DNA from: Psococerastis gibbosa
Taxonomy: Eukaryota > Arthropoda > Insecta > Psocodea > Psocidae
Length of the DNA stretch: 64,000 nucleotides
Reading direction: 5' to 3'
Assembly: GCA_963971405.1 (NCBI GenBank)
Contig: OZ020491.1
Coordinates: 28,199,019 to 28,263,018 of the forward strand
Part shown: positions 1,216 through 41,469 of the stretch, piece after piece
How positions within the stretch are numbered: position 1 is the first letter of the stretch
Layout: every line of letters begins with the position of its first letter
Program-made: the position numbers and the translations under genes
Notes under the pieces: model-generated
Told to the model about the DNA's origin: nothing
The model's database searches: none
Seen by the model: only the letters and a program-made list of their open reading frames with translations

Positions 1216-1443
1216 TTATTCCTTTTTAATTGATCCATTGATTATATACTCACAAAAATGATATCCTTTTATAACCGATAAAGCTAGGAGATTAGCTCTA
1301 CTGTCAAAATTTAATTCACCAACATCATCGACGTTGGCCACAGCGAAAAGATTAACTTCAAAAGGCATACCGTCCACCACATTTAACTCTGACTTATATT
1401 TTTCCATTGACGGATGTACGGAATTCAGCACACCAATAGTCCC
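1216..1443 (-). CDS. Gene A exon 4 with stop
   Basis: Acceptor TTTCTAG ends at 1444. The exon has 75 codons then TAA at 1218-1216. It encodes GTIGVLNSVHPSMEKYK and the last cysteine (YHFCEYI). No AATAAA is visible in the 60 bases after the stop. Confidence 0.8.
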   Translation of the reverse strand, partial: GTIGVLNSVHPSMEKYKSELNVVDGMPFEVNLFAVANVDDVGELNFDSRANLLALSVIKGYHFCEYIINGSIKKE

Positions 1444-4400
1444 CTAGAAACATAGAATGAAAGAATATAATAACAACTATGCCAACCTGGTAGAACTCCC
1501 AAAAAGCTCCAACTAGAAGTCAAATTATTGAATGTATTGCAAACTAACAGATAATTTAGTCGGTTTCTTCTAAATTGATTAGGTTTCAGATTAAAGTATT
1601 GGATATCTTACAACCGAAATTGGTTCTTTATTTTTCGCCTTATCAACCTGGCATTATGAAGAGTCGGTCAGCCTTGGCCCTTGGCAAACCTTTTATCAAA
1701 GCCAATTAAAGTTTCATCCTGGACTCTTTTCAAAACAGTAGCGCGTGGATGTCATAAATACGGATTTCCCCAAAGCATTTGATATGGTAGATAATTTTAT
1801 ACTAATAGTCAAGCTCCGTGTTTATGAATTGACTCCATCACTCCTATATAGAATGGATTTGGGCATTTTCGCCCCATCAAAAATTAATTTATTGTGAAGA
1901 TTAAAAATGCATACTCTCCACTGTTTATCCAGCGGTGTGCTGGTGTCCCACAGGGTTCTCACTTAGGGCCTCTACTATTTATCTTGTTCATAATTGATTT
2001 ACGTGCATACATATGTGCCCGATATATTGGACCTCATATTTGTAGATGATCACAGGATCCTGAATTATGATGTTGTGTTCAGATTACAACCGGCCTTAAA
2101 TGCCGTTTTTACATTATGCAATGACAATAATAATATGATCATAATCATGTTAAGTGTTATGTTATTACCTATATATACTACACATAAGCAAAGCTTAAAA
2201 TAATATACAAACTGGGCGACATTTTTGTCACCAGGTGACAGAATTTAGTCACCCAGTGGCAGGGGGTATTGTGCAAAAAAAAATTGAAAGGAAGTTTAAG
2301 TTTTGAAGTTATGCTTCTGTTAATTGGCAGCAACACACCCATGAACATGGCGCAACCTATGCTTAACTTTGAAAACTCAGGGCCCGGCTTGCCATCTTGA
2401 CCAGACTTGCCACCCCCAAGTAGGCTGCTGTTTGGTTGTAATACTAATTGATAAATAGCCAAGAGTCACTCGTTCAGGAGAGCCAGGATCTTGAGGGGGT
2501 TTAGAAGCGGTAGGTCTTTTGCATGTAACTGCGAGCTTCCCAAGCACTCTTCTTAGTGCGATCGCATCGCAGTGAAGGAGGATGTGCTCGGGGTTCTCCG
2601 TTCCTTCTTTGCAGAATCTGCATGCTCTAGACTCTCTGACACCTATGTTAGTCAGATGTTCATTCTAGTTGCAAAGCCCAGAGAGGTATACTGTAGTTGG
2701 TATACTGTAGTGGTCTCCCCAAGAGACTCCAGATATTGAACCCCAGGCCCAAAGACACCAAGGCCTGTTCTTGGATTTGTACGTCCTAGCCTAGAGCCAT
2801 CAGTAAACCACTTGATTGTGTGACTATTGAGAATTCCTGCTGGTTCGCAGTATTCTTTCTAACCTGACGGTCAGTGCACACCCAAAGGTTGTCTTTGGTC
2901 TCAGTGGTGAAAGGATTAGTCGCTAGATGTCTACACTATGCGTTGCCCAGGGTACGCCCGATCGGTTTTTTATCCACGGTTTTTATAACACGTGTATAAA
3001 AAGTGATCATCGGCTCCTTTCCTGTACCCCCACTAGTATCTTTAAAATAATTAACACCTATTGCCTGGCGTCATTATTTTCCGTTTGTGCTGCAACCGCA
3101 GAAGAGATGTCTAGAAAAAGGCCACTTACTTTGTTAACAGAGCATTGGTCCGACTCCATTGCATTAATAAAGAAGCTATAAAACTCATTCTCTTCTAGCA
3201 AATCGGTGCAAGTATCTTTTGAATCGTCAATAGGATGTTCTAGGGCTACAAGGCCAGTGGTGAAAAACTGAAACAAAACCGTGCACGAGAAGTTATGGTA
3301 CAGTGGTTCTCAAACGTAATGGAGGGGGGAGGTTGGGTAAAAATAAAGTGGGTGTGTGTACTTATGTACGCGCGTGAGAAGTTATACTTCTTTGCCATCA
3401 TTAGAAAACAGTTTTTAATTGCATGCAAATAATTAATTACAATAAAATGATAAAAGGACTGGAAAAGGACTATCAACAAAATATACAAAATGGCGAATGA
3501 CAATACCTGTCCAGAAAATAGTGATCAGAGCTGCCGAGTGTACCCACATGCGCGACTAATATCGAGGTTTTTATCACAAAATTTGTATTAAATTTATTTC
3601 TTTATTTTGTAAATATAAAATAACCAATAATAAATTTTTAACAGTAATAATTTAATAATATTTAGTGTTAATAATTATATTAAATACAAATATTTTGATT
3701 TATATCAAGAAATAATACGTACGGATAGAACTAAAACACGGGTACAAAGTGGCGGATGATAATACCTGTCCAGAAAATAGTGATCAGAGGTGACGAGTGT
3801 ACCAACATGCGCGACTAATAGCGAGGTTTCTTTTTTGTAGGCAGCTTCATTCTGTGAACTTTTTCTGTGAACTTTTGGGTGTTACAGATGCGCGCGCATC
3901 CTCAAAATTCACTCTCGATCGTAAAGAAGTATAACTTCAAAACTTTGTGTGTTTTAAACAGTATTTCACAATAATTAGACTTTTTTCAAATTTGCAAGTA
4001 GTTCATGAACTTCAAAAATTTGTAACGTATTTACTAGCTTTTTAGTACGGTTGTGCAGTTTGATTTTTCCTCATAATATTTTAGTATTACTTCTAAGGGG
4101 GTGTGACTAGTATTGGAAGTATACTGGGCGAAGTAAAAAAAAAAATACGCTGGTATGGTGACTTTACATATTACCTATCCGGCAATTACTTACTTTAATT
4201 TGGCGCAGTCAGCCCAGTGGGACTTTTGGCCGCTCTAACAATAGTGTCAATAGTCCCCTACCTGGTAGCCAGTGGCTGAGTGTGATTGAAAACGATAAAT
4301 ATGTCTGTGTGTCTGTGTTGCATGCATATGGAGAATGGAGAGGAATGCGCTCTTTCTCATATTAGGTATGTTCAGAAAATAAGGGGAATTGTAAAATTTC

Positions 4401-7400
4401 GGAGATGAGTCCAATAATAATTTTTTTTTATTATATTGATATTCATGCCCCTGAAGAAAGGTGAAATTTTCAGCTGTATTCATTGTTTACTTTGTCTATA
4501 GCTGCCGCTAAAGTTTGACGTGTTTTTATCAGCTTGGCGATTTTCGTTTATGAAAAGAAATGGATAAAATAATTTGTGTCAAATTTTGCTTAAAAAATGG
4601 AATAATAAAGTGCAACAAAGTGTGTGAAATATTAACAAAGGCCTAGGCCTATGGTGCTGAGTCTGTTATGAGTAAAACAAGAATTTACGAGTGGTACAAG
4701 CGTTTCCAAGATGGCCGTGAAAACGTTGAAGATGGTAGCGCCCCCCGGACGCCCCAGCACATCAACAACCGATGAAAACGTAGAAAATGTGAAATCAATG
4801 GTTATGAATGATCGCCAAATCACAATCAGAGAAGTCACTGATGATGTTAGCATAACGATTGGCACACGCCATGAAACGCGTGGTGCAACAAAATTTGTTC
4901 CAAATTTGCTGAATTTCGAACAAAAACACATCGTTGCTCTTTCGTGACTTCTTTGCCAAAAAACAATACCGTAACAATGGCCCAGCCTCCAAATTCACCA
5001 TTGTGTGACTTTTTCATATTCCCAAAAATAAAGAGAACCTTAAAGGGCTGTCGTTTTACAACGATAGATGACCTTAAAAGGGCACTGCTGAAAGTGCTGA
5101 AGGCTATTCCAACAATCGAGTTTGAGAAGTGTTTCGATGATTTGAAGAAGCGCTAGCATAATTGTACAATATAGAATGGGGACTATTTTGAAGGCGACAA
5201 CATTAATGTAAACAGATTTTTTTTTCTTTCAAAAAACGAAAATTCCCGTTATTGAACACAACTATTGAAATATTATAAAAATACACATATATTTATACAT
5301 AATATTAATATTTCTGCTAACATGGGGGCTGGATGCCAAAGGAGGAAAAGTATTGGAAAAATAGTTGGGAAATAGTGGGATACTACGCATTTTAACGGGA
5401 GTCTGGGGACTGCAGACACCATAGCTGTAGCTCCAGTAAGAAATTCTGAACGGTACCCATACCTTCCAATGCATGTAGTGTCAGATTTTTGGTGGGCACT
5501 TAACATGATTGCCAACGCAGTACTAATGGGTTAATTTTAAGGGTGGGCGGAAAGGAAATAAACCCATACGGAACATAAATACACTTTTCTATACCTATTG
5601 CTTCTTTTCTTACGGTAGGCCAAGGAAGCTAGTGGCGGATGATGGTGTAGGGGCATCGCAGCGGCCAAAAGTTTCCCCGAGCTGGATGCGCCCAAGGCCG
5701 TGCCCAGGGGGTGGTCCGAGGGGTCCGGACCCTCTCCGAAATAAAAGGGCACTGGATAGAATGGACTTCCATTAATAAAATACGTTAAAACAAGTTTGGA
5801 CTCCCCCCCCCCCCAAACAAAAACCTGGACATGGCCTTGGATGCGCCTAAGTAAGTCAAGTAAAGTTCTTTTCTTATACTTACATATAAACCATGAGTAA
5901 CGTTTTCGGTCATTGTGAAGTAGCCTTCCAAAGCGCCATCCTCATTAACTCTGACATTGCTTACATTTGCGTAGCAAGTTAAATCAACTGGTGGTATATT
6001 TTCAACGAAACTGTGTACATATAACAATCTCTGAAAATATTAAGAGATTTCAACATAGGTAAATTTAACAATTAATATAGCTTTTGTTGTGAAGTTCTAC
6101 GGACTCTGACTTTCGCTCCAAAGATTGCTGTTTCAAGTCCCACACTTGCTTAATTTTCTTGGAGGGCTTGTAAATCAGGCAGTCCCGGGCCTTACCAAGA
6201 GAATGCTTTAACTCCGCAAGTTAACCTACGGTGAGTTGCAAATTATAACAAAACTTACAGCAGAAAATCCCGGTTGGTTGACTGAGGCATACTTTGCAAG
6301 GGTTATACGAACAACTGTTATTTTACAAATTGCATTACATTTGTATCACCGTGACGTATTGGTTGAATGAGGTATACAGTGCAAAAGTAATGCGAACAAC
6401 TGTCATCATACAAATTGCATCAAATTTGCATAGCCGTGACGTATTTGTTGACTAAGACATACTGTGCAAGTGTTATGTGAACAGTTGTTTTCTTACAAAT
6501 TGCATAACATTTGCCGTGAAGTTTTGGTCAACTGGGTGTAGTTAATTTATTGCAGTATTGTAATTTATAAGGTATGTTGTTGTTTCCAACGCCTTCTTTC
6601 TGCATTTCTGCTTTAAGCAACCCTGTCGGCCTGGCGGGGGAGTGAGCCTGTTTGTTAACTAGAGGAACCCTAAGGGCAGACTCCTTCAACTCGGAGGAAA
6701 GGAGAGTTGACTGACAGGATGGACCTCCTGATTATAGTGGATTCCGAACCACTTGGGGAACATGGTAAAGTCACACGATTAGATCGGAGGTGACTCGACA
6801 CGCACGTAAACTGGTATAGTCTCAGCGTGTTATCATGTCCCACCATGTTCCCCTGCCGACGTTGTGCCCACTACCAAGTTAGCCGCAGTTTGAAACATGC
6901 TCTGCTCTCATAGATTCAACATGGTTGGCTAAAAGAAACATCCGACAGCCGAAACATCAAACAGAATAATTACGAGCACCTAAATAAGGCAAGAGAAAGT
7001 TTTTTATTCTTTATTTCTTTATTTCAAATTAATTTTTCGTAGCCTATGACCAGTTTGATAATACTAATGAATAATAATGTGAAGGGAGGAATTCATTTAT
7101 TTCGTAAAAATATTTTGAAACCTCTCCTTTAAGTCTATACCTCTCAACTTTGGAATTTCCTGACTGACAAAACAAGGACAGAGAGCAGTTTGGGGAAATT
7201 TAATAAGGCAGCCTGCCATCAATTTCTGCTGGGGAATGTGTGAGAGTAAATGAGTGAGTGCAAGAGTTTTTTTCTTCTTTTCTTATCTCGTTTAGGCTAT
7301 CTTTTTTTTACAGGAAAATTATTTTTGAACAAAAAATTTAATGTAAATAAAAAAAGTATGCAGATTATCTGGAAGAGTAGCCCTTCGGGGCTAAAGCTCA

Positions 7401-7525
7401 CCTGAAAATAAAGACGATTTTCATTTTATACCGAAAAACGTAAATGAAATCACTGCACTTACCTCTGCTTCAGCAGTGGACATCAGCGCACAGGTCAACA
7501 GAGCAACAGCGAATAGACTATTCAT
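1216..7525 (-). CDS. Gene A: secreted four-cysteine protein, candidate ML/GM2-activator-like lipid-binding family, 4 exons
   Basis: Coding exons on the minus strand are 7463-7525, 5884-6030, 3130-3267 and 1216-1443. All have GT/AG boundaries with GTAAGT donors, and all introns are phase 0, giving 191 aa. Residues 1 to about 20 form a signal peptide (MNSLFAVALLTCALMSTAEA). The mature part has cysteines at 40, 90, 112 and 180, with 22 residues between the middle two. It carries SFFINA before the third cysteine and sequons NVS, NVT and NGS. The order (a strand-rich half with a dG.l.g.ft pattern, then C-x(21)-C-S/P-V, then a GxxxxV...C...I tail) resembles GM2-activator, MD-2 and DUF1091 proteins. 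A disulphide-bonded lipid-binding beta sandwich is therefore inferred, not shown. Introns hold LINE, mariner and SINE debris. Gene B is its close tandem copy and gene C an older relative. Confidence 0.75.
1755..2150 (+). mobile_element. LINE reverse-transcriptase remnant in gene A intron 3
   Basis: Broken plus-strand frames read TDFPKAFDMVDNF, then a mutated GV.QGS.LGPL region (GVLVSHRVLT in one frame) and FVDDHRILNYD. These correspond to the FxKAFD, PQGS-type and F.DD-type blocks of non-LTR reverse transcriptases. The aligned copy sits in the same intron of gene B (21603-22390), so the insertion predates the A/B duplication. Confidence 0.6.
2470..2905 (-). mobile_element. LINE fragment: RNase H start fused to C-terminal zinc knuckle
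   Basis: Minus-strand frames read IKWFTDGSRLG (the first acidic motif of RNase H) and, after a gap, CRFCKEGTENPEHILLHC (a C-x2-C-x10-H-x4-C knuckle). The stretch between is too short for a full RNase H, so an internal deletion is likely. Gene B intron 3 lacks this block (around 22690), so it arrived in A after the duplication or was lost from B. Confidence 0.6.
3130..3267 (-). CDS. Gene A exon 3
   Basis: Acceptor TTTCAG ends at 3268 and donor GTAAGT begins at 3129. The exon has 46 codons. It contains DTCTDL, SFFINAM and the third mature cysteine in DQCSVNK. The same length as gene B exon 3 confirms the boundaries. Confidence 0.8.
3489..3830. repeat. Pair of 80-bp direct repeats in gene A intron 2
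   Basis: About 80 bases beginning near ATACCTGTCCAGAAAATAG occur at 3489-3568 and again at 3749-3828 with a few differences. The AT-rich stretch between them has no coding signal. Confidence 0.6.
4368..5262 (+). mobile_element. Mariner-like element, internally deleted, in gene A intron 2
   Basis: The plus strand keeps the N-terminal part of a mariner transposase (starting near 4559, with SKTRIYEWYKRFQDG and ITIREVTDDVSI). It jumps at about 4925 to the C-terminal part (CDFFIFPKIKRTLKG, ending FEKCFDDLKKR at 5156). The DD34D catalytic core is missing and there are stops and frameshifts. Imperfect terminal repeats containing AGGGGAATT / AATTCCCGT lie near 4370-4390 and 5240-5260. The element is absent from gene B intron 2, so it inserted after the duplication. 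Confidence 0.75.
5580..5830. repeat. Dispersed repeat with poly-C tract, shared with 25300-25640
   Basis: This block between exons 2 and 3 of gene A matches the corresponding block of gene B, including a C tract ending CCCAAACAAAAACCTGGAC. In B the segment keeps a LINE-tail-like frame; here it is more decayed. Confidence 0.5.
5884..6030 (-). CDS. Gene A exon 2
   Basis: Acceptor TTTTCAG ends at 6031 and donor GTAAGT begins at 5883. The exon has 49 codons, phase 0 at both ends. It encodes the first mature cysteine (DLTCYANVSNV) and two sequons. The exon length is identical to gene B exon 2. Confidence 0.8.
6095..6245 (+). repeat. tRNA-derived SINE fragment, gene A intron 1
   Basis: It contains GGACTCTGACTTTCGCTCC and a degraded box B (TTTCAAGTCCC). 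A GGAGGGCTTGTAAA-type body follows, as in the fuller SINE copies at 34190 and 48145. A counterpart sits at 25895-26050 in gene B intron 1. Confidence 0.55.
6575..6930 (+). repeat. Dispersed repeat R1, copy in gene A intron 1
   Basis: About 350 bases running from GTTGTTTCCAACGCC through a GGCGGGGGAGTGAG motif to AACATGCTCTGCTCTCAT. Related copies are at 26155-26455, 40395-41205 (interrupted), 20655-20855 and 59135-59335 (3' part). No coding frame was recognised. Confidence 0.6.
7463..7525 (-). CDS. Gene A exon 1 (signal peptide)
   Basis: The ATG at 7525 opens 21 codons ending in GAG before a GTAAGT donor (GT at 7462-7461). It encodes only the signal peptide. The start was chosen because the same ATG, leader and upstream TATA box are preserved in gene B. 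Confidence 0.75.
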
Positions 7526-7557
7526 TTTGCAAAACACTAAATGCTTGTAAAACATTT

Positions 7558-7592
7558 AATGAGTTACCCATTCATGGACCATTCTTTATATA
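7558..7592 (-). promoter_or_regulatory. Core promoter of gene A (TATA box and initiator)
   Basis: On the minus strand TATATAAAG (7592-7584) is followed, 32 bases from its first T, by the A of a TCATT initiator-like motif (7562-7558). This predicts a start near 7560 and a 35-base 5' UTR. Gene B keeps both motifs at the same spacing. Confidence 0.55.
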
Positions 7593-7869
7593 CGAGGTGG
7601 TCACCGGAAATCGTCTCTCGAAATAACAAATAAAGGATACGAAACAATAAAATTGCCCGGATATACGCACCTATACATTTGCGGGTACAAAAGACTTCTG
7701 GAATCAGGATGGGCTAATTGAGTTGTTATTCCCCAAAAAATGACAAATATAATCATTTTCGCATTAGCGCCAAATGCCGTACACGCCAGTGGACAATGAA
7801 TGGTTTAGTGGCAATGGGAACGTAACGCTCTTCTATACTGAACTAGACCTATACACAATTGGAAAAGTC

Positions 7870-8112
7870 AAACGAAGACGGGCGTAGTGGGGCCACACAA
7901 AATAAAGAAAAGAGGGACACCGGCTACAACGTGTCAGGGACTATACGGTGGAGGGTACAAGACCTATAGGACGACCGAGGATGTCACTTGAAACAAAAGT
8001 GAGGAAAAACCTCAGGACCCTCGGTCTCTCACCGGATGATACTCAAGACCGGAACACCTGGAAGTTGGAGATCCGTGCCACAGACCCCGCCGGAGGGAAA
8101 AGGCGCCGTTAA
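7870..8112 (+). mobile_element. LINE 3' end remnant upstream of gene A
   Basis: The plus-strand frame reads RDYTVEGTRPIGRPRMSLE and later RNTWKLEIRATDPAGGKRRR, the usual GRPR...W...A.d layout of a non-LTR polymerase tail. Its first part matches 28005-28115 upstream of gene B. Homology between the two loci stops near 7955 and 28113, marking the duplication edge. Confidence 0.5.
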
Positions 8113-16155: not shown

Positions 16156-17064
16156 CTAGCGCCGTGCTGCCAACCGCTCACTGCGGCGGACTGCCTGGGG
16201 TTGTAGCTCCACAGGAGATGCTGTAGGTGTGTCATTGGAGTCAATTCCGTCAATATCTGTGCCATCGTCAAGGGGAAGCTTGCATATGCGAGTAATTGGG
16301 CGCTGGTAAGTGCTGTGTTGTGTTCGCACGGTTACCGCCCGAGCCAACACATCTGCGGATGCATGAACTTCGAGTACTCTGCCCAATCGCCATTGAAGCG
16401 GGTGGAGATTGTCCTCCTTTATCACTACTAGATCGCCCATGCGTATGGGTGGTTGTTGAGTACACGACTTTGGACGATGATTCAGTCTCGTTAAGTATTC
16501 CCAAGACCATCGGCGCCAAACGTCTTGAGACATTCGCTGGACGAAAAGCCAACGCTGTCTTGGTAGTATCTTATCGTCCTCCATGCGCTTGGGAGGAGCG
16601 ATTAAAGGGCCTCCGACGAGAAAATGCCCAGGTGTCAATGCTGCTAGGTCTGATGAATCTCCTGAGATGGGAGTTAGCGGTCGCGAGTTGAGAACGGCCT
16701 CCGCCTGGCAGAGGACGGTAGACAGCTCTTTGAAGGTCAACACGTGGTTCCCAACAAGGGCATTTAAATGGAATTTTACGGATTTAACACCTGCTTCCCA
16801 AACACCACCCCAGTGGGGAGCGGCAGGAGCGTTAAACTGCCACTGAACTTCTTTGGTAGGCAGCGCATTTTGTAGTGAAGCTGACTCGTGGATGTCTTTT
16901 AAGATCTTCGATGCAGCGGTAAAGTTAGTACCCCGGTCACTGAACATTGTAGAAAGTGTGGAACGCCGTGCACAAAGACGCTGAAAGGCGGCCAAGAAGG
17001 CATCAACTGATGAACTTGACGTAAGCTCCAAGTGCAGAGCTCGCGTGCTCATGCAGATAAACAA
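16156..17064 (-). pseudogene. Bel/Pao integrase core and C-terminal domain
   Basis: STRALHLELTSSSSVDAF continues the core. FSDRGTNFTAA gives the second Asp and APHWGGVWEAGVKSVK the Glu. LNSRPLTPISGD and LTPGHFLVGG then lead to a DUF5641-like tail with WRLGRV and ITRICKLPL. The stop is at 16156. It is readable over about 300 codons but displaced in frame from the zinc domain. Confidence 0.85.
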
Positions 17065-17633
17065 ACATATGTACCCCTTGTCCCCTTATGGTGGCGTGCC
17101 CCCCGGCTGAGGTAGGTGTGTAAGTTAATGGGACCGGCAAAATCAACCCCACAACGCTGGAAAGGTGAAACTGTGGTAACAGGAAGATCAGCCATTAACT
17201 GGGTGGCAGCCCGCGCCCGAAGACGAGTGCATGTCGCGCATGTGCGCGTGATAAATCGCGTTAGATTACGGAGCCCGGGGACGTGGTATGACTGAAGGGC
17301 AATCGCTGCCAACAACTGGGGCCCCGCATGTTCACTCATCACATGCAGGTTTCTGACGATCAGCTTCATAGCTGGATGCGCATAGGGTAGTACAATTGGG
17401 TGCCGAGTTGACTCAGGGAGCTCGGAGTTGCGCAGGCGGCCGCCTACTCTAACTATGCGTTCGTTGTCCAAAAAGGGTGCCAGTTTGAACAGTGAGGACA
17501 TACGACCGACAGGCTTTCCTGCGATCAACCGTTCGATTTCCTCGTGGTATACTTCGCGTTGAATCATACGCAGCATGGTGAACCGAGCGTTGGTAATTTC
17601 CGGTCCTCTAATGGGGCCCCGGGGTCTTTGCAC
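17049..17633 (-). pseudogene. Bel/Pao integrase zinc-binding part
   Basis: It has HPIVLPYAHPAMKLIVRNLH, HAGPQLLAAI and TCATCTRLRA (the H-H-C-C zinc-binding domain). FQRCGVDFAGPI, which carries the first catalytic Asp of the core, follows. The frame breaks at YVCLSA (17049) by a small deletion relative to the next frame. Confidence 0.8.
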
Positions 17634-17648
17634 TACCGGGGTAATGGC

Positions 17649-19896: not shown

Positions 19897-20000
19897 TTGC
19901 TTGCCGATTTACACTCTTTAAGTGTATGCCCCCCGATAATGTAATTAGAACACAGCTTGTGCTTACTTACCAGAATGTGCCTTTCAGCGAGTGTGACTTC

Positions 20001-20077
20001 AGGTTAAGGGGGCCTACAAAATAATTTGTTACGCCAATCATTTTAGAAAAATATACGAATTGCTATTATTATTATTA
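20001..20077. repeat. Small repeat inserted in Bel/Pao gag, shared with 56768-56858
   Basis: AGGTTAAGGGGGCCTACAAA through ATATACGAATT and an (ATT)n tract occurs here and at 56768-56858, just upstream of the LINE at 57 kb. The (ATT)n end suggests a LINE- or SINE-tail insertion. Confidence 0.55.
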
Positions 20078-20860: not shown

Positions 20861-20999
20861 GGACGCGGCACTAAGAGGGGGGAGGAAGTATGAGTCAACT
20901 CAGGGTAGTTTTACTATAGGGGTGCGATGGTTGGGGTTAAACAAATCCTTTGCGAAAGTAGGTTTGTAAAAATACTTGTCTCAGGTTTCAAAATATATA

Positions 21000-24200: not shown

Positions 24201-27200
24201 TTAGTTTTAGAGTAGGATATATTGTTATAGGTCTTCATGTGAGGCTTTACAATTATTGTATTTAAATTATTCTATACTTAATACATTCATTCATTCATAA
24301 TTTGTCGGATATAGTCCGCAAAATCAAATCTCCAACCGCCATTAACAAACGGGGACATTTTTGAAATTGGTCCATGAATTTCAATAAAATAAAATAAACT
24401 GTATATATTGTTATCTGTTCCCTTAACCTTGTCTTATCAAAGTCGCCCCAGAAAACATTTTATTTATTTTCTACTCCTCACTACCAGTCGTTTCATGCAA
24501 TAAAATTGGTGCGATCAAAGACACGACTTTGATCGCACCTTTTTTTTTTACTTTTTGGAAAACCTAATAAAAAATGTGGACTGAAATTTTGTAAGGTTGT
24601 ACCAAGTATACTATCAATTGCCAGAAAGCAAAAATAGTAAAAGTATCGATCAAAGTCACCCCCGGTAACGGTAGCTATTTTAGTAGAGCAGAGAAAATAT
24701 AATTTTAATTTACGTTGGCACCGATTTGTTCCCTGATCAATGCAAAGTATGATGCGCGCAGTAGCTGGCGCCTAGTTAAGTGAATATTTGATTTTTCCTC
24801 ATAATTTAGGCTAAAATTTAAGGGGGAGGGGGGCGACTAACAGTTATATGGGGGGTGAAAAGTTTGAGAAACGCTGGTATGGTGACTTTATATATTAACT
24901 ACCCGGTCATTACTTACTTAAATTTGGCGCAATCAGTCCTTGTAGTCCTGTACAATTAGTCCTGTACCTTTCGCGACCCTCAGCCACTGGTAGCCAGGCT
25001 GCAGTGTCAAGGCCGGTTAAAAATTCATTGTGTATTACATAGTGGTTTTTATTTTTCCTCTCAAACGAATCTATCTAGCATCAAGCCATTTCATTTCGGC
25101 GGGGGGGGGGGGCTTTGAACCCCCATGAACCACCTCCTTGGCTACGGCCTTGCTGAACGGCACCCCTACGTTCCAATAGTAGGATTAGAATTTTTTTACC
25201 GAGTCATGGTGGACACTTAACTGAGAGCCAACGCAGTACTTATTGCGGTTAATTGTAAGGGTGTGCGGAAAGGAAATTCCCCCATACTGAAAATAAATAC
25301 AATTTTCAGTCTTCCTTCAATTCTTACGGAAAGCCAAGGCTCAGATGGAGGGGCCAAATGCTCGAAGATGTGCGCGCGCCACCGCGCGGCACCCGAGATT
25401 GGAAGCTAGCTGCGGAAGATCGTCCGAGATGGCGGGGTGTAGTGGCAGCGGCCAAAAGTTTCCCCGGGCCGGATGCGCCCAAGGCCGTGCCCAGGAGGGT
25501 GGTTCAGGGGGTCCGGACCCCCTCCGAAATAAAAGGGCTTTACACTGGATAGAACGGATCTTCATTAATAAAATACGTTAAAACAAGTTTGGACACCCCC
25601 CCCCCCCCAAACAAAAACCTGGACACGGCCTTGTATGCGCCTAACTAAAGTCAAGTAAAGTTCTTTTCTTACTTACCTTCATATCATGTGTAACTTCTGC
25701 GGTCATTGTGAAATTGCCTTCTAAAGCGCCTTTCTCATTAACTCTTACATTGCTTACATCTGCGTAGCAAGTTATATCAAATGGTGGTAAATTTTCAACG
25801 AAACTGTGTAAAAATAACACTCTCTGAAAATATTAAGAGATGTTTAACTTAAGTATAAATGTATATTTAACAATTAATACACTAGTAGCTTTTGTTGTGA
25901 AATTCTATGGACTCTGACTTTCGCTCCAAAAGTTATTAGTCCCACACTTGCTTAATTTGCTTGGAGGGCTTGTAAAACAGGCCTTACCAAAAGAATGCTC
26001 AATAACAGCTGCAACTCTGCAAGGATGTCATTTTGTAAAACTACGGTGAGTTGCAACCAATTATAACAAAACTTACATAGATCTCGGTTGGTTGACAGAG
26101 GCATACTTTGCAAGTGTTATACGAACAACTATTATCTTGCAAATTGCATAACATTTCCAACGTCTGCTTTCAGTATTTCTGCTTTAAGCAACCCAGTCAG
26201 CCTGGTGGGGGAGTGAGTCCGTTTATTAACTTGAGGCACCCTAAGGGCAGACTTTTTCACCTCGGGGGAAATGGGAGTTGACTGCCAGGGTGGACCTCCT
26301 GATTATAGTGTATTCCGAGTCACACGGGGATAGGTCACACGAATAAATCGGAGGTGACCAAGACTCGACACGCACGTAAACTGACTGGTATAGTCTCAGC
26401 GCGTTATCAAGTCCCACCATGTTCCCCTGCCAATGCTGTGCTGCCAGGCTTGAGCACCATTCAATCGAAAATTGCTGAATATAGGTTCAGAAGCCTATAA
26501 GATACAGACTTGCCTAAAGCAGTAGTCAGTAGGTACTCAGTAGTCGTTTGGCCGCGGCCGTGAGTTTTATCAAGTTTATTAAATTTATACAATAGTATCC
26601 CTCTTTTGTTTGTTGATACCCGCCTGAAGAATTTTGTGTATTTTTTTTTATCTGTGTGTAATGGTGAATCATGTGAATTGGAAATAGGATACTAAATAGG
26701 CAACTAACCAGCTAGCGCAGTGGCGAGTGGAATAAGGGTTTTTCTTTGAGGGATGGCGGTCCAGCCCCCCCCCCCCCAGGATTTCTGGTGACAAAGACGT
26801 CATGGAGGCGAATGGCGTAACATCCACAATAACGAGAGGGAAATTAAATCTTGGTATGCTTATTTTACATGAAAGACATCATAAAAAAAATCGATATATT
26901 GACACAAAAAAATATATATTACTCAAAATGTTTACAACCCCAATATTTCAGACTTAATTTCTCAAAATTTTTCTGCGGGGGAGACCCGGAGACCCCCGGG
27001 CTCCCCTCCGTGGTAGGTCTATTCGTCGGTAAAAAAAATAAAAAAATACCGGTACTGCTTGCAAAATGATTTATCAATTTTTTTCTCCGGGGGAGACCCC
27101 CGGCCCCCTTTCTCACTTTGGAAGTGAATGAGTAATTAGTCAAAATCTTGGGGTTCTAAAGCCCCCCTAAAATTTTAGGAATTTACGCCAATGCGAGGGT

Positions 27201-27682
27201 CTGTGTATAATTTGTGTATGATTGATAGATTTATTAGAATAATGAGTTGGAATCAAGGCCGTAGCCAAGAGGGGGTTCATGGGGGTTCAACCCCCCCCCC
27301 CCCCGAAATGAAATGGCTTGATACTACATAGAATCGGATTTTGAGAGGAAAAATGAAAACCACACTGTAATAGCCAATGAAATTTCTAACACCCCCCCCC
27401 CCCGAAAAAATCCTGGCTACGGCCTTGGTTGGAATATTCGCATGCCAGAGTTGGCCAATCGCTGTGCCCCCCCCCCCCCCCCAATCACCATACCCTCGCG
27501 ACGCCCCTGTACTGCTCTCATTGATTCACCGTGGTAAGACCGTTTTTAAATCTCTCCGTTAAGTCCATGCCAAAAAACGTGCCTGAAATCAAAAATCGTA
27601 CTGGACCTACCTTTTTTTTGGCAGCAGCAGACATCAGCGCACAGCCCAGCAGAGCAACCCCAACAACGAATAGACTATTCAT
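21000..27682 (-). CDS. Gene B: secreted four-cysteine protein, tandem copy of gene A, 4 exons
   Basis: Coding exons on the minus strand are 27611-27682, 25677-25823, 22941-23078 and 21000-21227, all with phase-0 GT/AG introns, giving 194 aa. The signal peptide is MNSLFVVGVALLGCALMSAA. Cysteines fall at 43, 93, 115 and 183 with the same spacings as gene A. CPVK after SFFINAMGPDK is closer to ML/GM2-activator and DUF1091 patterns than A is. Sequons are NFT and NKT. About 68 percent of residues in exons 2-4 match gene A. Introns align with A except for element insertions. Function inferred: extracellular lipid or hydrophobic ligand carrier. Confidence 0.78.
21603..22390 (+). mobile_element. LINE reverse-transcriptase remnant with internal tandem duplication, gene B intron 3
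   Basis: The plus-strand frame 21603-21881 reads TDFSKGFDIVDSFKLIVKL, CAGVSQGSHVGPLLFILFIN and DLPAHI (RT blocks 3-4). The segment 21705-22025 is then repeated at 22061-22388, including the GTTTCACAGGGTTCTCATGT-type word. Gene A has a single copy. The duplication therefore happened in B, or one copy was lost in A. Confidence 0.7.
22941..23078 (-). CDS. Gene B exon 3
   Basis: Acceptor TTTCAG ends at 23079 and donor GTAAGT begins at 22940. The exon has 46 codons with DTCNDLKEDNEFFSFFINAM and KCPVKS. Confidence 0.8.
23830..23955. repeat. Dispersed poly-C repeat D, gene B intron 2
   Basis: It contains a C14 tract followed by GAAAAAAATCCTGGCTACGG. Related blocks are at 25050-25160, 27245-27430 and 63755-63885. 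All join a C or G homopolymer to TTGGCTACGGCCTTG-like ends. Confidence 0.6.
25050..25160. repeat. Dispersed poly-C/G repeat D, gene B intron 2
   Basis: A TTTTTATTTTTCCTCTCAAA stretch, then CATTTCATTTCGG, a G tract and CCTTGGCTACGGCCTTG. It is absent at the matching position in gene A, where the mariner element lies instead. Confidence 0.6.
25320..25640 (+). mobile_element. LINE 3' end remnant with poly-C repeat, gene B intron 2
   Basis: The plus-strand frame reads MLEDVRAPPRGTRDWKLAAE then DRPRWRGVVAAAKS, typical of non-LTR polymerase tails (W..LA.DR..WR). A downstream C tract and CCAAACAAAAACCTGGACAC are shared with 5800-5835 in gene A. Confidence 0.5.
25677..25823 (-). CDS. Gene B exon 2
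   Basis: Acceptor TTTTCAG ends at 25824 and donor GTAAGT begins at 25676. The exon has 49 codons containing DITCYADVSNV and LEGNFTM. It is the same length and phase as in A. Confidence 0.8.
25895..26050 (+). repeat. tRNA-derived SINE fragment, gene B intron 1
   Basis: It aligns with 6095-6245 in gene A (GGACTCTGACTTTCGCTCC, GGAGGGCTTGTAAA), so it predates the A/B duplication. Confidence 0.5.
26155..26455 (+). repeat. Dispersed repeat R1, gene B intron 1
   Basis: It aligns with 6590-6900, including the GGGGGAGTGAGTC and TCACCTCGGGGG regions. It gives the uninterrupted reference for the split copy at 40395-41205. Confidence 0.6.
26750..27190. repeat. G/C-rich repeat block related to 9050-9540, inverted
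   Basis: It contains GGGGGAGACCCGGAGACCCC and TCCGGGGGAGACCCCCGGCC words and AAAATTTTAGGAATTTACGC. It is the reverse-complement relative of the 9.1-9.5 kb units. It lies in gene B intron 1 and has no counterpart in gene A. Confidence 0.5.
27245..27480. repeat. Two poly-C repeat D blocks, gene B intron 1
   Basis: C14-C16 tracts follow GGGGGTTCAA and a TTGAGAGGAAAAATGAAAAC block. The text GAAAAAATCCTGGCTACGGC recurs as at 23930. Confidence 0.55.
27611..27682 (-). CDS. Gene B exon 1 (signal peptide)
   Basis: The ATG at 27682 opens 24 codons ending AAAAAAAAG before donor GTAGGT (27610). The leader is three codons longer than in A because of a GTTGGG-type insertion and the lysine-coding A-run at the end. 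Confidence 0.75.
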
Positions 27683-27714
27683 TTTGCAAAACACTAAATG
27701 CTTGTAAAACATTT

Positions 27715-27749
27715 AATGAGTTACCTATTCACGGACTATTTTTTATATA
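27715..27749 (-). promoter_or_regulatory. Core promoter of gene B (TATA box and initiator)
   Basis: TATATAAAA (27749-27741) precedes a TCATT motif (27719-27715), 32 bases from the first T to the A, exactly as in gene A. The predicted 5' UTR is about 35 bases. Confidence 0.55.
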
Positions 27750-28159
27750 CGAAATGGTCACCGGAAACCATCTCTTGAAATAACAAATAGAGGACACAAA
27801 ACAATGAAATTTCCCGGATGTATGCACCTATACATTTGCGGGTACAAAAGACTTATGGAATCAGGATAGGCTAATTGAGTTGTTGTTGGAATTCCCCCAA
27901 AAAATAACAAATATAATCATTTTCGCATTAGCGCCAAATGCCGTACACGCCAGTGCACGTACACGCCAGGGAACGTAACGCTCTTCTATACTGAACTAGG
28001 CCTATACACAATTGGAAAAGTCTGGGAACGAAGACTGGCGTGGAGGGGACATACAAAATGAAGAGAAAGTGGAAATTTGCTACAACGTGTAGAGGGACTA
28101 TGCGGTGGAGGGTTGATTTTAAGACAGGGGGAAAGGCTCGAACAAATCGGTGACCCCCA

Positions 28160-34410: not shown

Positions 34411-34626
34411 TTACTTCTTTTCGACTACATTGCCAGTAATATCAAAGATGCAAAGATGTCTGACATATGGAGTAATGGTGGAGATCTTAGTGACATCAAT
34501 TGTCTCAAGGCCTGCTGCATCTAGATCCACCAATAGCAGTATTCTTATTCTAAATTCTTCGTTAAGCTTGGCATCTGAAAACTGATCCAACGGAGGTCGT
34601 ACAGGCGTAATCGTGCCGTTAGCTTT
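34411..34626 (-). CDS. Gene C exon 4 with stop
   Basis: Acceptor TTTTTAG ends at 34627. The exon has 71 codons and TAA at 34413-34411. It begins KANGTITPVRPPLDQF, matching the position of GTIGVL in A and B. Confidence 0.75.
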   Translation of the reverse strand, partial: KANGTITPVRPPLDQFSDAKLNEEFRIRILLLVDLDAAGLETIDVTKISTITPYVRHLCIFDITGNVVEKK

Positions 34627-37600
34627 CTAAAAAGAAGGAAAATCAGACCAATAATTAAAATCTGTCTTAAAAACATACTTACTTACTTAGGCTACTTAAT
34701 AGCCAACAACCACCCTTGGCATGTCGGCCATTTGCTGACGCGCTGACCAGTAGCGACGTTTGATTTTCGGAAACTCGCCTTCATTTGTTGGTGTGTGGGC
34801 CAGCCACTAGGTGTTCTGCGTCCATCGGGGGGAATCCACATAGGTCGCAGGAATTGCTGACTCCAATGTGTGCAGCGAGGTAGTCATGGCCCGTCGTGAT
34901 CCTGAACGCCGCGACACTAATGGACCTGGGTGGGCTGCGTGAAATTGGCTTTTAAGGAGATTTGTGTTAGAACATGCTCAGCAACCGCTCTCATAATACG
35001 CTTTCAGGATGCTACAGTGTTATGTACAACTTCTTCATACCACCCCCGGTTACACAAAGAGGCTATAGAGATCTGTAAGCACCCTCACAACTTCAATAGA
35101 AAGGAGAAAGGACTGAAAGTTAATAGAATTTGGTATCCAATTTTTAACAAGACCACAACAAAGAAACTTATGTCATCATCATCCGGAAATCGGGTTGATG
35201 TAGTAGGGAGCCAATCAGGTATGAGGAAGACTCCGCCTCCACCCCCCGCCACCCCGCAACTTGGTATAAATATCAGAGCACAACCTCCTGCCCACACAGT
35301 TGCTGCTGAGCCTCCAAGATACAATCTTAGAAGTCTACGCAGTTCCACTGATGATGTCGACCGCAGATGTTGATGAAACGTTTGGAAGTTCGCTTTCATT
35401 TCGACCACGGCCCATCATCTAGATATTATATATATATATACCATATAGATATCATTAATAAAGGCGGGGTTTCCACCGACCTCTCATTGCAGAATGCAAA
35501 TGACATTGACTGAAATTTTTGTGTTACTCTATGCCATAGTTAAAATTTATCAACCATCATACAGTAAAATCACAAACAAACCAACCGAAATTAAAAAATG
35601 GCATCGTGGGATATGTTAAGTACAACCATTTTAATAGATTACTATAAAAATAAAAATTTAAATTTCCGTCAATGTCATTTGCATTCTGCAATGAGAGGTC
35701 GGTGGAAACCCCACCATTATTAATGATATCTGCTACCACGTCACCGTATGTGTATTTTGCACTTGCAGGTCGGTGGAAACCGCGCCTTCGCAGTGTAATT
35801 TTCGACCTCCCTCATGGTCTTCTTCCTTGTTTTAGTTTCTACGAATAGTACGTGTCCCCACCAATTCAGTCTCCTTTCTCTCAGTTTTCTCGTAACTTGT
35901 ATCGTAAGTCACGTGTTCTCATCTCTTTCTTTATATCTTGATTTCTTCGTTGGTCTCTCAGCGTTAAACCGCAGGATCTTCTTAGCATTTGCATTTCTGC
36001 TACGTGAATAATATTTTCCTTACCCTCAGCAGGGTCTGTGGAATCTCCCTACACCTGATAGGCCAGAGCCGAATGGGATTTTAATTTACTTACATCGGGA
36101 ACTTGTTGGCAAGTTTTCTTTCCTAGTGCATTTATAAAAAAGCTCCAAGGTTCATCCTTCTGCTTCAAATTGATACACGTCTCACCTGATAACAAGAAGG
36201 GATCTGTGCCCACCGTTGCACCTGGCATACCTTGAACAATGAACTGAAACACAATGAAGGAGGAGCTATAATTGTATACCTGTGGTATATTTTGATAAAT
36301 AGGAAAGCATGTACGGGTCCACTCGAACCATTCATTTTATTTATATCCTGCTAGGGCTGCCGTTTCATTATTTTCATATTCCCGGAATCACTGCTTGAAA
36401 AGTCCCGGAATTCCCGGAAAATTCAAAAGTTTGCTGCCTAAAGGTACTACCAACAAATCGGTATAAAATTTCGGCTCCACTAACATCATAAGTCATAACC
36501 AAGAAGTTTTTTTTTTAAATTTTGAGTTTTTTTTTTAAGTTGTAAGTTGTTAACCTGTATTAAAAATATTTTTAGGCTATTTGGAGTAATTTTACGTTTT
36601 TTGCTGTATCAAGTATTCAGAAATTACTGCATTTTGTCTTAAAAACACGTTTGTAGGCTAGGTTTACGCCATTTTTTTTATATATTTTTTTAAAATTTGC
36701 CGTGCTAGCTCGATTTAGCGCATTTTTTCATATTGCGGCAAAGTCTCGGAAAATTCCCGGAAATTGATAGGTCCGGAAAAATTCCGTAATTTTAAAAAAT
36801 TCCCGGAATTCCGGGACTATTCCCGGACAACGGCAGCCCTGAAATCCTGCATTAACAACAAGTCATGACTATACCTTCAAAAACATCTTCACCGTATAGT
36901 ATAGTTGTAGCAGTGGAGCCTTTCTGCCCTTTATACGACACCCGGGAAGAGATGGACGAAAAACACATTAAGACGTCAGTAGCAGAGGTTCACCAGACTA
37001 TGTGTTGTGTTTACATATTTACGTTATTAAATGCAGTAATGTAGATAAAATATAAAATAAAACTCGCATTATTCGCACCATGTATGAAACAGTATTAAAT
37101 AGGGGCCCATCACAGATTTATCTACAGGGTCCCTGTATGTATGCCACTACTACTGTATACTATTACTACTTTTGTACTATTATTTGTTATGTATGGATGA
37201 AGGAAATAAATAAATTATTTATTTATTATTTATTGGGCTGCAAGATAGCTGCTGATGGCGGAAGCCTAACGCTATGGTTTAATTAAAAAATATATATCTT
37301 TCATTTTTATATTTTAATTTAATTGCATAAATAGGAAACACGACCCGCTATTATAATTTGTTATCTATCTACAATTAATTAACAGCTTCTTTAAATACAT
37401 TTGAGGAGCTTGGTTACAAACGTGGCCAACTCCATTTTTTTACAAAATGGGGTTTTGATCCGACCTTGCAGAAAATTTTAATGTCCACCTGCACGTTGTA
37501 AAAGAACCGGTCCGAGTTCACTCGAACATGCTTTCCAATTTATCAAAATTATTAGATAGAGAAAATTAGTAATTTTATGGCAAATATTTTTCCTACGGTT

Positions 37601-40600
37601 AAATTTCCGATATCTCGGGGGGTGGGGGGGGGGCGGTTGTCCACCTGACGTCACTGGAAGTGAGGTAAATTCTCGATAGGTCAATAAACAAACACATTAA
37701 TTACCACACAGCAATAATGGCAGGGCATGCAATGCATTTGAGCGCGAATTTTCTATCATTTTTTTCAAAAAATAATTTTTTGGGCAAAACCAAATATTTT
37801 TTTGGGAAAGCAACCTATCCGGTTTCGTTACTCAATTTAACACCTAAAACATGCTTGAAGGTAGAAATCATCGATAGAAAGGTTTCGCATTTTTTAGTAA
37901 TTTTTTCATTAAAATTTAGTTATTTTTATTTTTTTACCCCCAGAAGCAAACTATCAAGGGGCAAGCGACCCCCCGCATTTTGTCAACATTAATAACGACT
38001 ACAATCTACGAGAATTTAAAAGAAATCGTTGGAGCCGTTTTTGAGAAATAATTTTTTTAGACGTTTTTTTGGAGTTTTTTGAAAATAAAACCCCCCCAAA
38101 TTGAGTTAGCCCAAAAAAAAAAAAAAATGGTCCCGAGGTATGATTTTTGTGAACCTACATGCCAAATTTCACTCAAATCCACTGAGTAGTTTGCCCGGAA
38201 ATCGACGAACAGACAGACAGAGCGACAGACAGACATTTCGTAAAAACCACTTTTTTGGGTTCCTGGGACCTCAAAACGTGTAAATCCGTTGAAATCTCAG
38301 AGTCAAAAATTTTGACCATCACAAAGCTTTCCTTATACTAAGTATAAATTGGAAAGCAATAAAGTGACAAAAGCAGCCAGATTGCGCACAGAAGTGCTGA
38401 GAAGTCTAGGGTTAGCTATAAACTTAATGCAATTTTCAACAGAAAATCCACTCTCCTGAAAAATTCTACAACTTGGAGTTGGCCATGTTTGTAAACAGCC
38501 TCCTCATTTATTATCAATCTAACGGTACCTAAACCTGGTATGTACATCAACTCCATTTTAGACTAATAGTTGGCCTTAGTCCAGTGTAGACAATTTTTTT
38601 AAATGGGTTTTATTCTACTATAATTTGATGTCCCATTTCACAATTTTTCAAGGGAACTACCCTGAACTACGACTTGAATGACTATTTTGTCGTCCGCTTG
38701 CAAATATAAATGGATACATTATTCTACTTACCATAAGGGAATCAAGTTTGTCGTAAAGGGTAAAATTGCCAACGATACGCCCATTTGTATCAAATTTCAT
38801 ATGGCCTGTGGTGGAAACGCATGTTGCTGGATCAGGGGGTGGACTAGTGAAGCTCTTGACATCTAGATAATACTGAAAATGTTTAAAATGTTAATGCCTG
38901 GGACGACTCGAAAGAATTTCAGAGAAAATTCACAAAACAAGCATGGCGGGAAGAAGAATGCACAGCTCCCGGCCAAAGAACTTCTAATATAATATACTAG
39001 AAGTACCATTGGCGCTAGTGTCGCATGGTCATTTGATTTCCACCATTTTTGGGATAACAGCAGGGGGTATTCTGCATTTTATTTAAAAACTAAGAGAAAA
39101 TGCTTTTTTGTTGCCCTGTTATTATTGCCTATAATTTAATTTTGCATTTGCTACATTTTAAATTTCATAGGGTACAGTATAGTTGTTGTTTTGTATGATT
39201 GAATTTTTTTGATGCTACTGTTTATTTTTAATCCACTATTATTATATAATTCAGCTATTTTGGGAAAGCCTATTAATTATAATAGTGAAGTTAGACAGCC
39301 TAAATATTTAATAAAGACACATTTTTTTTTGTTTTAAAAATGTTGGGCTAGGTACCATAAGATAACTATAGAGTTTCATTTGGCGCGAAAATCTGAGGCC
39401 AAAAGATGGCGGATCTTCTATTGGTCTCCACTGCTGCAAGCAAATCATGTGGCTTGCTCCCGGCAGAAGAAGAGCATCCTGAATGAAAAACAGGAGGTAT
39501 AAGGCTTGGCCTTTTCAGAGCAGCAGTCTCTGAAGGTACGGGTTATTTGTAATAATTAATTAAATAAAAAATAATGTTATAATAAGCACACCGCATTGTT
39601 TATTTTTCTTCTCATGTCAGAACTTCAACACAACAGTAGTACATCTTTACGCCGCCAGTTGCAACTATTGGCGGTACTTTTAAAACTTATTTTTGTTCCC
39701 ATAGTCTCCAAGGTCTAAGTTGCCATGATTATAATCAATCTTCGATAGAAGAGGCTGTTGCCTGTACCAAAATTAGTGTTCAATATAAAAATAAGACAAT
39801 TTTCTTTCTTTAATTCAAAAGACGCATGCACCCAAGTCGGTACCCAGTACCCCCATTAAAAAAAATCTGACAAAATACGTAAGCCCCCACAATCTTGCAC
39901 CAATAATTTAAAAAAAGATCTGACCCCCCCCCCCCCAGTTTGAAATATTAATCACTCTTGTTTGGTAAAATCTTAACTTTATTGCTAACAAAATACGCAA
40001 GTCCCATTATTTCGCGCTTATGTTATCATAAATTTCCCCCCCGGCTCCTCGCCCCCTTTTTTGCACTATATAAATGGCTTATACATGGACCACGGACTTA
40101 AATATTTTAAAGTTTTACGGATTAATCTAAGAAAACTCCCGAATAAACTGAGAGCGGCGAAAAAATTCTACTAACTTTCCTAAATGGCGTAGAGACCATT
40201 AATTATCACTGGGGCACTAGCCCAATGACAATGGCAGAACTACCGATTTTGACGATATTTTGACGATTTAACTTTATACTTTCTTATCAACGAAATTACT
40301 TGTTGATTGCTTGATTGTATAATTTAAAAGAAATATATATATATATATATATTCATTTATTTATCGGCTGAAAACTCCTCTCTCGAAATTCCTGTTGTTG
40401 TTGTTTGTTGTTTCCAACGCCTGTTTTCAGCATTTCTGCTTTAAGGAACCCACCCTGACAGCCTGGCGGGGGAGTGAGTCTGTTTGTTAACTTGAGACAC
40501 ACTAAGAGCAGACTGTTTATTGAAATAAGCTGATTTCATGACTTGAGTTGCCTATTAGCAAAAGCAATCCTCTCCATTTTTTTCAGTTTTGAGATATTCG

Positions 40601-41469
40601 TGCCATTTTTTTATATTTTTCAATACTCTATCCGATGAATCAGATATTGAGACGCAAAAGCAATTCCAATACTGTTAAAATTAGCTTTAAGAACTGTAAT
40701 GTTATGGCGTTGCGGCTCAGCAGTTTTCTGCGGTTTCTGAAAAATCGACCTGGGTGAACAGGATTGTTTTTGCTAATATAGGCAACTCAATTATACTTTT
40801 GTTTTCTCCCGCCAATTTTAGTTATCTGTGACTAGCGCTGCTGGCGCCGAACATTCTAGAACATTAGAAAATGGCGTTTGGTGTGAATTCCTTTTTTATC
40901 GTTTGTAAAATTGTATTTCAATAATTATTATAGGCCTAATTATGATTTATTCAACTATAAATATAATTATTTCACTACTCTTTCACCTCGGGGGACAGGG
41001 TGGATAGCGAATTCCGAACCACTTGGGGAACATAGTAAAGCCACACAATTAATTCGGAGGTGACCAGGACTTGACACGCACGTAGACTGACAGGTATAGT
41101 CTCAGCGCGTTATCATGTCCCACCATGTTCCCCTGCCAACGCTGTACACACTACCAAGTTTGCCGCAGTTTGAAACATGCTCTGCTCTCATGAAATCAAC
41201 ATGGTAAGGCCGTTGTCAAAATTGCTGGGTGCGGCCTTACACGCAATATTTAGTAATTTATCCATTGTGCGCTTAGCCCTCTGTGGGGGTGCTGAGCGCA
41301 TATGAGCGCCCAACAGAATTCAATGCTTGAGTTATGCGTATTTGCGGTGCCAAAACCCATTTGAAATATAATTTCAATTTATTTTGCGAATGAGAAATTT
41401 ACTTACGTTGGCATCAACAGTATATAGCAGCGCGGAGCTGACGAAAATGGCAGCAAATAAGCAGTACAT
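34411..41469 (-). CDS. Gene C: secreted four-cysteine protein, divergent paralogue of A and B, 4 exons
   Basis: Coding exons on the minus strand are 41407-41469, 38732-38872, 36094-36243 and 34411-34626. All introns are phase 0 with GTAAGT donors, giving 189 aa. The signal peptide is MYCLFAAIFVSSALLYTVDA. Mature cysteines at 39, 91, 113 and 177 keep the A/B spacing (22 between the middle two). Motifs kept are MKFDTNGRIVGNFTLYDKL, ETCINLKQKDEPWSFFINAL and a C-terminal RHLCIFDITG. Sequence identity to A and B is low outside these blocks, so C split earlier. The dG.i.gnFTl...l block and the final C...I tail are what suggest a GM2-activator/ML-like fold; this is inference. Introns contain Penelope, hAT and Harbinger-type debris. 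Confidence 0.75.
34700..34925 (-). mobile_element. LINE C-terminal fragment, gene C intron 3
   Basis: Minus-strand frames read VAAFRITTGHDYLAAHIGVS and CDLCGFPPMDAEHL, then in a shifted frame IKRRYWSARQQMADMPRV. It is the same domain type as 33435-33880, frameshifted. Confidence 0.65.
34930..35373 (+). mobile_element. Penelope-like element C-terminal fragment, gene C intron 3
   Basis: The open plus-strand frame contains YHPRLHKEAIEICKHPHNFN then KVNRIWYPIF. This is the end of Penelope polyproteins after the GIY-YIG endonuclease (R..KEA.eI.Kh..NfNR...l....W). Its tail is rich in Pro and Arg (PPRYNLRSLRSS). The upstream reverse transcriptase is missing. It runs antisense to gene C. Confidence 0.65.
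35446..35791. mobile_element. Harbinger-type MITE, copy 2, gene C intron 3
   Basis: The inverted arms are GATATCATTAATAA plus GGCGGGGTTTCCACCGACCT, and the complement ending TTATTAATGATATC at 35731. The outer arm (TGCTACCACGTCACCGT) is kept only on the right, so the left end is truncated or altered. Confidence 0.6.
35800..36012 (-). mobile_element. LINE tail fragment, gene C intron 3
   Basis: The minus strand reads AEMQMLRRSCGLTLRDQRRN and, after a shift, RRLNWWGHVLFVETKTRKK. This matches the LR...G.T..D..RN...RL.WwGHV layout of LINE tails. Confidence 0.65.
36094..36243 (-). CDS. Gene C exon 3
   Basis: Acceptor GTTTCAG ends at 36244 and donor GTAAGT begins at 36093. The exon has 50 codons, four more than A and B, the extra residues lying before the ETC cysteine. 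Confidence 0.78.
36352..36842. mobile_element. hAT-type MITE in gene C intron 2
   Basis: A 491-bp element begins TAGGGCTGCCGTTT and ends AACGGCAGCCCTGA, with CCCGGAATTCC-rich arms. It is flanked by 8-bp near-duplicates TATCCTGC (36344-36351) and AATCCTGC (36843-36850). End sequence and target-site length fit hAT elements. Confidence 0.7.
37495..38358 (+). mobile_element. Element F, copy 2, gene C intron 2
   Basis: It starts GAACCGGTCCGAGTTCACTC, then TGCTTTCCAATTTAT, and ends TATAAATTGGAAAGCA. It contains the GGGGCAAGCGACCCCCCGCA region and a (CAGA)n tract. It aligns with copy 3 in the same orientation. Confidence 0.65.
38732..38872 (-). CDS. Gene C exon 2
   Basis: Acceptor TTTTCAG ends at 38873 and donor GTAAGT begins at 38731. 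The exon has 47 codons including PDPATCVSTTGHMKFDTNG. Confidence 0.75.
38873..40390. other. Gene C intron 1, part without recognised repeat
   Basis: AT-rich, with a C tract near 39925 and an (AT)n run at 40335-40352. A short ATGGCGG-containing stretch near 39410 is noted but too short to call. Confidence 0.45.
40395..41205 (+). repeat. Dispersed repeat R1 split by an insertion, gene C intron 1
   Basis: The first part (40395-40515) and second part (40982-41205) align with the continuous copy at 26155-26455. The join corresponds to CAGACTTTTTCACCTCGGGG there. Confidence 0.6.
40516..40982. mobile_element. Foldback insertion inside R1
   Basis: About 465 bases with internal inverted arms: GAGTTGCCTATTAGCAAAAG near 40545 and its near complement ending GCAACTC near 40795. 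A CT/ACT pair flanks the insert. No coding frame. Confidence 0.55.
41407..41469 (-). CDS. Gene C exon 1 (signal peptide)
   Basis: The ATG at 41469 opens 21 codons ending in AAC before GTAAGT (GT at 41406-41405). The length equals gene A exon 1. Confidence 0.72.

Follow-up and report, generated by a model that had tools for sequence, protein, structure and literature searches.

The 64,000-nucleotide stretch of Psococerastis gibbosa DNA analysed here (contig OZ020491.1, positions 28,199,019 to 28,263,018; hereafter the window) carries on its minus strand three genes, termed A, B and C, each of which encodes a small protein with a predicted signal peptide and four conserved cysteines. A first-pass annotation of the sequence had placed the genes at the same positions, and their exons are as follows.

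7463-7525, minus strand: gene A exon 1, encodes the signal peptide MNSLFAVALLTCALMSTAEAE; a TATATA box lies 67 bases 5' of the ATG
5884-6030, minus strand: gene A exon 2, holds the first mature cysteine
3130-3267, minus strand: gene A exon 3, cysteines 2 and 3 and SFFINA; ends in CSVNK
1216-1443, minus strand: gene A exon 4, fourth cysteine and stop
27611-27682, minus strand: gene B exon 1, encodes the signal peptide; a TATATA box lies 67 bases 5' of the ATG
25677-25823, minus strand: gene B exon 2
22941-23078, minus strand: gene B exon 3, SFFINA; ends in CPVKS
21000-21227, minus strand: gene B exon 4
41407-41469, minus strand: gene C exon 1, encodes the signal peptide; a TATAAA box lies 68 bases 5' of the ATG
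38732-38872, minus strand: gene C exon 2
36094-36243, minus strand: gene C exon 3, SFFINA; ends in CQQVPD
34411-34626, minus strand: gene C exon 4, AATAAA 4 and 25 bases past the stop

The exon junctions were deduced from the sequence and from conservation among the paralogues. Each of the 12 exons has a length divisible by three and all nine introns, 1.4-2.6 kb long, are of the GT...AG type and in phase 0, so that the joined models (191 aa for A, 194 aa for B and 189 aa for C) bear out the array with a common four-exon plan proposed in the first-pass annotation. The matched cysteine spacing and the shared SFFINA motif of that annotation were recovered as well: the mature cysteines lie at 40/90/112/180 in A, 43/93/115/183 in B and 39/91/113/177 in C, separated by 49/21/67 residues in A and B and by 51/21/63 in C, and SFFINA is encoded in exon 3 of all three genes (3160-3177, 22971-22988 and 36127-36144, respectively). 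One extra cysteine lies inside the signal peptide of each protein. The signal peptide itself had been assigned to exon 1, and the hydropathy maximum indeed falls in the exon-1 part of all six intact family members known to us (A, B, C and the genes D1, D2 and E1 described below); in E1 an internal stretch nearly equals it (2.71 vs 2.72). Past this exon, the mature proteins comprise about 152-170 residues. A and B are 69% identical, and C shares 25-27% with either. This likeness exceeds chance, given these identities, the match of B exon 3 to C exon 3 (E 4e-6 when 264 kb were searched) and the recurrence of the plan in three further genes. Judged from the sequence, A, B and C are real genes, A and B being the copies of a duplication of about 7 kb and C an older relative.

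The same plan was found elsewhere in the genome. We searched its 409 Mb (68 contigs) with B, C and D1 as queries, scoring only the best candidates, and the family counts are therefore lower bounds. Query B returned A, B and C together with exon-3 matches on contigs C14 and C2; among the best candidates scored, D1 returned only the same three clusters (A-C, D on C14 and E on C2), and C added one weak match at C19:9741309-9741458 (E 0.94). The additional intact genes are the following.

Contig C14, exon 1 start at 14303835: D1, four exons, phases and cysteines as in A-C
Contig C14, exon 1 start at 14314521: D2, four exons, phases and cysteines as in A-C
Contig C2, exon 1 start at 5987188: E1, same plan, with one extra cysteine in exon 2

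A further copy, E2, retains exons 2 and 3, and its exon 4 consists of 12 family codons followed by sequence that looks, on inspection by eye, like a repeat within one of the introns of gene C; no exon 1 of E2 was found in the 5.3 kb upstream. We thus predict a family of at least six intact members (A, B, C, D1, D2 and E1) and one truncated member, E2, in three clusters, and all six intact members hold the four mature cysteines in compatible order. Searches with exons 2-4 of the three window genes gave no further convincing family exon within 100 kb on either side of the window. A candidate fourth gene past the window end, resting on a weak exon-2-like match at 66876 (E 0.007), had neither splice sites nor partner exons and was rejected as a chance match.

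The A-B duplication is delimited by colinear blastn pieces and spans exons, parts of introns and flanks.

1081-7956, minus strand: duplicated segment with gene A, blastn pieces colinear with 20866-28113
20866-28113, minus strand: duplicated segment with gene B, blastn pieces

For the counts below, three of the ten blastn pieces, which lacked colinearity, and all unalignable noncoding stretches were excluded; because two of the pieces used overlap, part of the noncoding indels may have been counted twice. Across exons 2-4, dN is 0.194 and dS 0.146 (dN/dS 1.33, bootstrap 0.76-2.73), and noncoding divergence is 0.145; nonsynonymous change is slightly higher than noncoding change (p 0.037) and does not exceed synonymous change (p 0.46). 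The excess is largest in exon 4 (dN/dS 3.2; p 0.056 against synonymous and p 0.009 against noncoding change, uncorrected for the three exons looked at), which is suggestive only of selection on that exon. The exons contain two indels in 576 bases, both in frame and both in exon 1, whereas noncoding sequence has 79 in 2822 bases (Fisher p 6.6e-5). Given this deficit and the dN/dS figures, the frames have been kept while residues changed at about the neutral rate. The A-B excess is not repeated in the other pairs, where dN/dS is 0.74 (D1-D2) and 0.61 (E1-E2, two exons). The absence of stop codons was rejected as a coding test, being weak: in simulation, a neutral copy at 0.08-0.10 substitutions per site escapes stop codons 29-39% of the time.

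As to the nature of the encoded proteins, the most informative comparison was with the DUF1091 genes (PF06477) of the same genome. A search with PF06477 gave three exons, all on C2, and one of them exceeds the cut-off only jointly with its neighbours in frame (25.1 vs 25 bits). With one DUF1091 exon as genome query, 22 matches were obtained at E <= 1, ten of them in an array at C2:22672694-22795605, ten in another at C14:41361258-41522151 and two elsewhere on C14; the three local exons that were scanned against PF06477 all match it (E 1e-4 to 2e-4, 22-23 bits, with the cut-off at 25). All eight of the 22 matches that were read have phase 0 on both sides and a donor site four residues past the second cysteine or its place. 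In exon 3 of the A-E family the donor likewise lies four residues past the third cysteine in six of seven members, and five residues past it in C; the cysteine pair of this exon encloses 21 residues in the family and 22-23 in the DUF1091 exons. In contrast, two exons of local ML genes (L003 and L004), read by eye, end at YPL, 22 residues past the CP cysteine and hence 18 beyond the site common to DUF1091 and the family, and start in a phase other than the phase 0 of the family exon. One DUF1091 exon (L050, C2:22672684-22672862) has both pair cysteines replaced together, by Tyr and Val, which suggests that the two are bonded to each other in other members.

We compared a profile of family exon 3 with one of seven DUF1091 exons, leaving out L050. 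Both cysteines and the exon end align, and the score beats 150 of 150 column shuffles, or 148 of 150 when the cysteines are held fixed; an earlier version with three DUF1091 exons had beaten 198/200 and 199/200. Since donor site and phase are common to the family and the local DUF1091 exons, unlike in L003 and L004, the family would be a diverged offshoot of the DUF1091/GM2A-like group, and the intron position is the best new argument for this kinship.

A second line of evidence comes from Pfam (24,736 families), where ML (PF02221, curated cut-off 22.7 bits) includes both GM2A and NPC2. ML is the sole match of B (E 0.093, 13.5 bits; mature protein E 0.069, 14.0 bits) and the better of two matches of D1 (E 0.18, 12.6 bits; mature E 0.12, 13.2 bits), all below the cut-off. 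In these two proteins, only 32% identical to each other, the matched parts of the profile overlap (positions 42-106 and 58-114 of 133), and none of ten cysteine-fixed shuffles matches ML. Taken as a single named family, ML would have E ~4e-6 for B and ~7e-6 for D1 (E divided by the number of families). A sequence combined by hand from residues of the three window proteins brought no improvement against ML (E 0.1). Against GM2A, single-sequence and 15-sequence profiles aligned only the signal peptide or out-of-register stretches, with the exception of a D1-led profile, whose best local alignment places family cysteines 2 and 3 on the part of GM2A that runs from FEHFC to CHCPFKEGTY. A disulfide of GM2A joins these two regions, and the ML domain is known for a first-to-last disulfide and a central pair. 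The sequence support for the ML reading of the family is nevertheless weak.

Several results weigh against such a kinship. PF06477 is matched by none of the six family members at E <= 10, and the genomic comparison concerns exon 3 only of the DUF1091 genes. For the exon-3 profiles, hhalign gives a probability of just 10% (P 0.003), and once both the cysteines and the CPxxx end are fixed, 38 of 150 shuffles reach the score (112 are beaten); the DUF1091 signal therefore lies mostly in the CP motif, the two cysteines and the intron rather than in general similarity. No member exceeds any Pfam cut-off among the six scanned, and four of them (A, C, D2 with exons 2-4, and E1) have no Pfam match at all, E1 even without its signal peptide. 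D1 also matches the unrelated DUF3860 (E 0.27), and B and D1, being paralogues, are not independent tests of ML. Pfam matches with E ~0.1 arise in shuffles too (four, to other families, in three of ten), so it is the identity of the matched family that counts, ML having been named beforehand in the first-pass annotation. A comparison of the mature family with 15 GM2A-type proteins was not significant (hhalign probability 0.2%), and, according to one CheB study, its data do not support GM2A homology of CheB42a, that protein being secreted and not lysosomal; a limited similarity to sulfotransferases is described there instead (PMC2827562). The link to ML, GM2A and DUF1091 lipid binders suggested in the first-pass annotation thus stays plausible and unproven: it gained from the intron site and cysteine pair and from ML being best for B and D1, and drew nothing from the DUF1091 and GM2A profiles.

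Neither the three-member family profile (3592 candidates, E <= 0.01) nor the six-member one (5656 candidates, E <= 10) found a relative among 5.8 billion proteins, in a search that requires shared 5-residue words and so misses very diverged relatives; a GM2A search confirmed that the database does contain named animal proteins. None of the six members matches the prokaryote library NCBIfam at E <= 1, and PDB sequence searches gave only weak matches to other folds, the best being CD3 gamma (E 0.2) and OhrB (E 0.76). The literature consulted contained no description of the family. Apparently, A-E form a small, fast-changing and lineage-restricted family of secreted insect proteins, in agreement with the lineage-specific family of the first-pass annotation but larger than the three genes noted there.

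CheB proteins we take to be DUF1091 proteins. In the literature they appear as small proteins, soluble or secreted, that are associated with the detection of cuticular hydrocarbons in flies (PMC5637092, PMC2827562); five CheB genes are expressed in Rhodnius antennae (PMC5216343), and the molecular mechanism by which CheB-type proteins act in the contact chemosensation of insects is given as still unknown (PMC5637092). The A-E family resembles the local DUF1091 genes in being arrayed and in its phase-0 exon with a cysteine pair and a donor four residues past the CP cysteine, but it lacks their GYQkN-DG-SWQT stretch and its clusters are separate from theirs. GM2A is likewise secreted, and the CPFKEGTY of the human protein is comparable with CPVKxGT of the family. 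GM2A has eight cysteines in four disulfides, whereas the family conserves four mature cysteines, which could correspond to two of those disulfides. With ML/NPC2 the likeness is that of the best Pfam family for B and D1, and the difference that of the intron site in L003 and L004. As side observations, stretches of the ML genes at C1:48987275-48987678 (L002, L006) and C3:22055463-22055723 (L001) look near-identical, which suggests a recent copy, and exons of the odorant-binding family PBP_GOBP exceed the Pfam cut-off in this genome (six matches at E <= 0.001), as befits an insect, this family not being known outside insects.

On balance, we consider it rather probable that A-C belong to a secreted family from the DUF1091/CheB-GM2A side of the ML superfamily and serve as extracellular carriers of hydrophobic molecules; the family is probably a distant cousin of the CheB and GM2-activator lipid carriers. 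One alternative, in which these secreted four-cysteine proteins have an unrelated fold and serve, for instance, in defence, saliva or reproduction, would make the CPxK motif and the intron site chance resemblances to DUF1091. The empty search with the six-member profile, the PDB matches to other folds, the lack of any Pfam match over cut-off and the fast change between A and B all suit it, and fast change is usual in defence and reproductive proteins. Exon phases, cysteine-pair spacing and donor site nevertheless agree with DUF1091 exons of the same genome, and ML is the best Pfam match twice, so that we regard an unrelated fold as rather unlikely.

A divergent branch of NPC2-type ML proteins, that is, of sterol carriers, would also account for the ML matches of B and D1, as the Pfam family covers NPC2, and the genome does have ML genes, one of which (L005) matches NPC2 structures. 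This placement seems improbable to us: the L003 and L004 exons differ from the family exon in intron site and start phase, the L005 protein is encoded by one uninterrupted frame, and only four cysteines are conserved in the family, whereas NPC2 has six in three pairs. Least probable is that A and B are decaying duplicates, either pseudogenes or artefacts of prediction. Their dN/dS is indistinguishable from neutral, simulated neutral copies often stay free of stops and E2 is truncated; yet indels per base are eight times fewer in exons than in noncoding sequence, those in exons keep the frame, and six genes have retained the four cysteines as well as their TATA boxes and splice sites.

The window holds other elements as well. 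A mariner-type transposase-like remnant, judged by eye, lies in intron 2 of gene A (~4550-5160, plus strand), and a BEL/Pao-type retroelement in several frames (~16156-20836, minus strand; Peptidase_A17 and DUF5641 matches) separates A from B. A LINE-like frame with RNase H and zf-RVT matches occupies 56988-58109 (plus strand). Finally, the open frame 62609-63268 (plus strand) encodes 196 residues from its ATG, starts with a hydrophobic stretch (MPRTPMHTALLCGLVLLFSVAKA) and has no Pfam match at E <= 1; it is possibly a further gene for a secreted protein beside A-C.

Returning to the kinship with DUF1091 and GM2A, we infer from it a fold, disulfides, ligand binding and perhaps a sensory (semiochemical) role for the family. 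The proteins would be secreted by way of their signal peptide and adopt an ML/GM2A-like beta sandwich with two disulfides, joining cysteines 1-4 and 2-3, which would enclose a hydrophobic cavity for a lipid-like or other small hydrophobic ligand. As soluble carriers or presenters, they would deliver this ligand to a receptor, an enzyme or a surface outside the cell, and the setting may be sensing, reproduction, immunity or saliva. The ligand would diversify through duplication (A/B, D1/D2 and E1/E2) and, in A/B, through relaxed or positive selection with its peak in the last exon. More tentatively, and with clearly less confidence than we place in the kinship at large, the family might be a diverged sister of the local CheB/DUF1091 arrays, invisible to sequence search, whose members carry lipids or semiochemicals and whose last exon is under diversifying selection. 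If so, a sister family missed by profile searches would have been recognised by its intron position, the repertoire of extracellular carriers in insects would be undercounted, and recent pairs such as A/B and D1/D2 would provide material for testing how carriers change their ligands.

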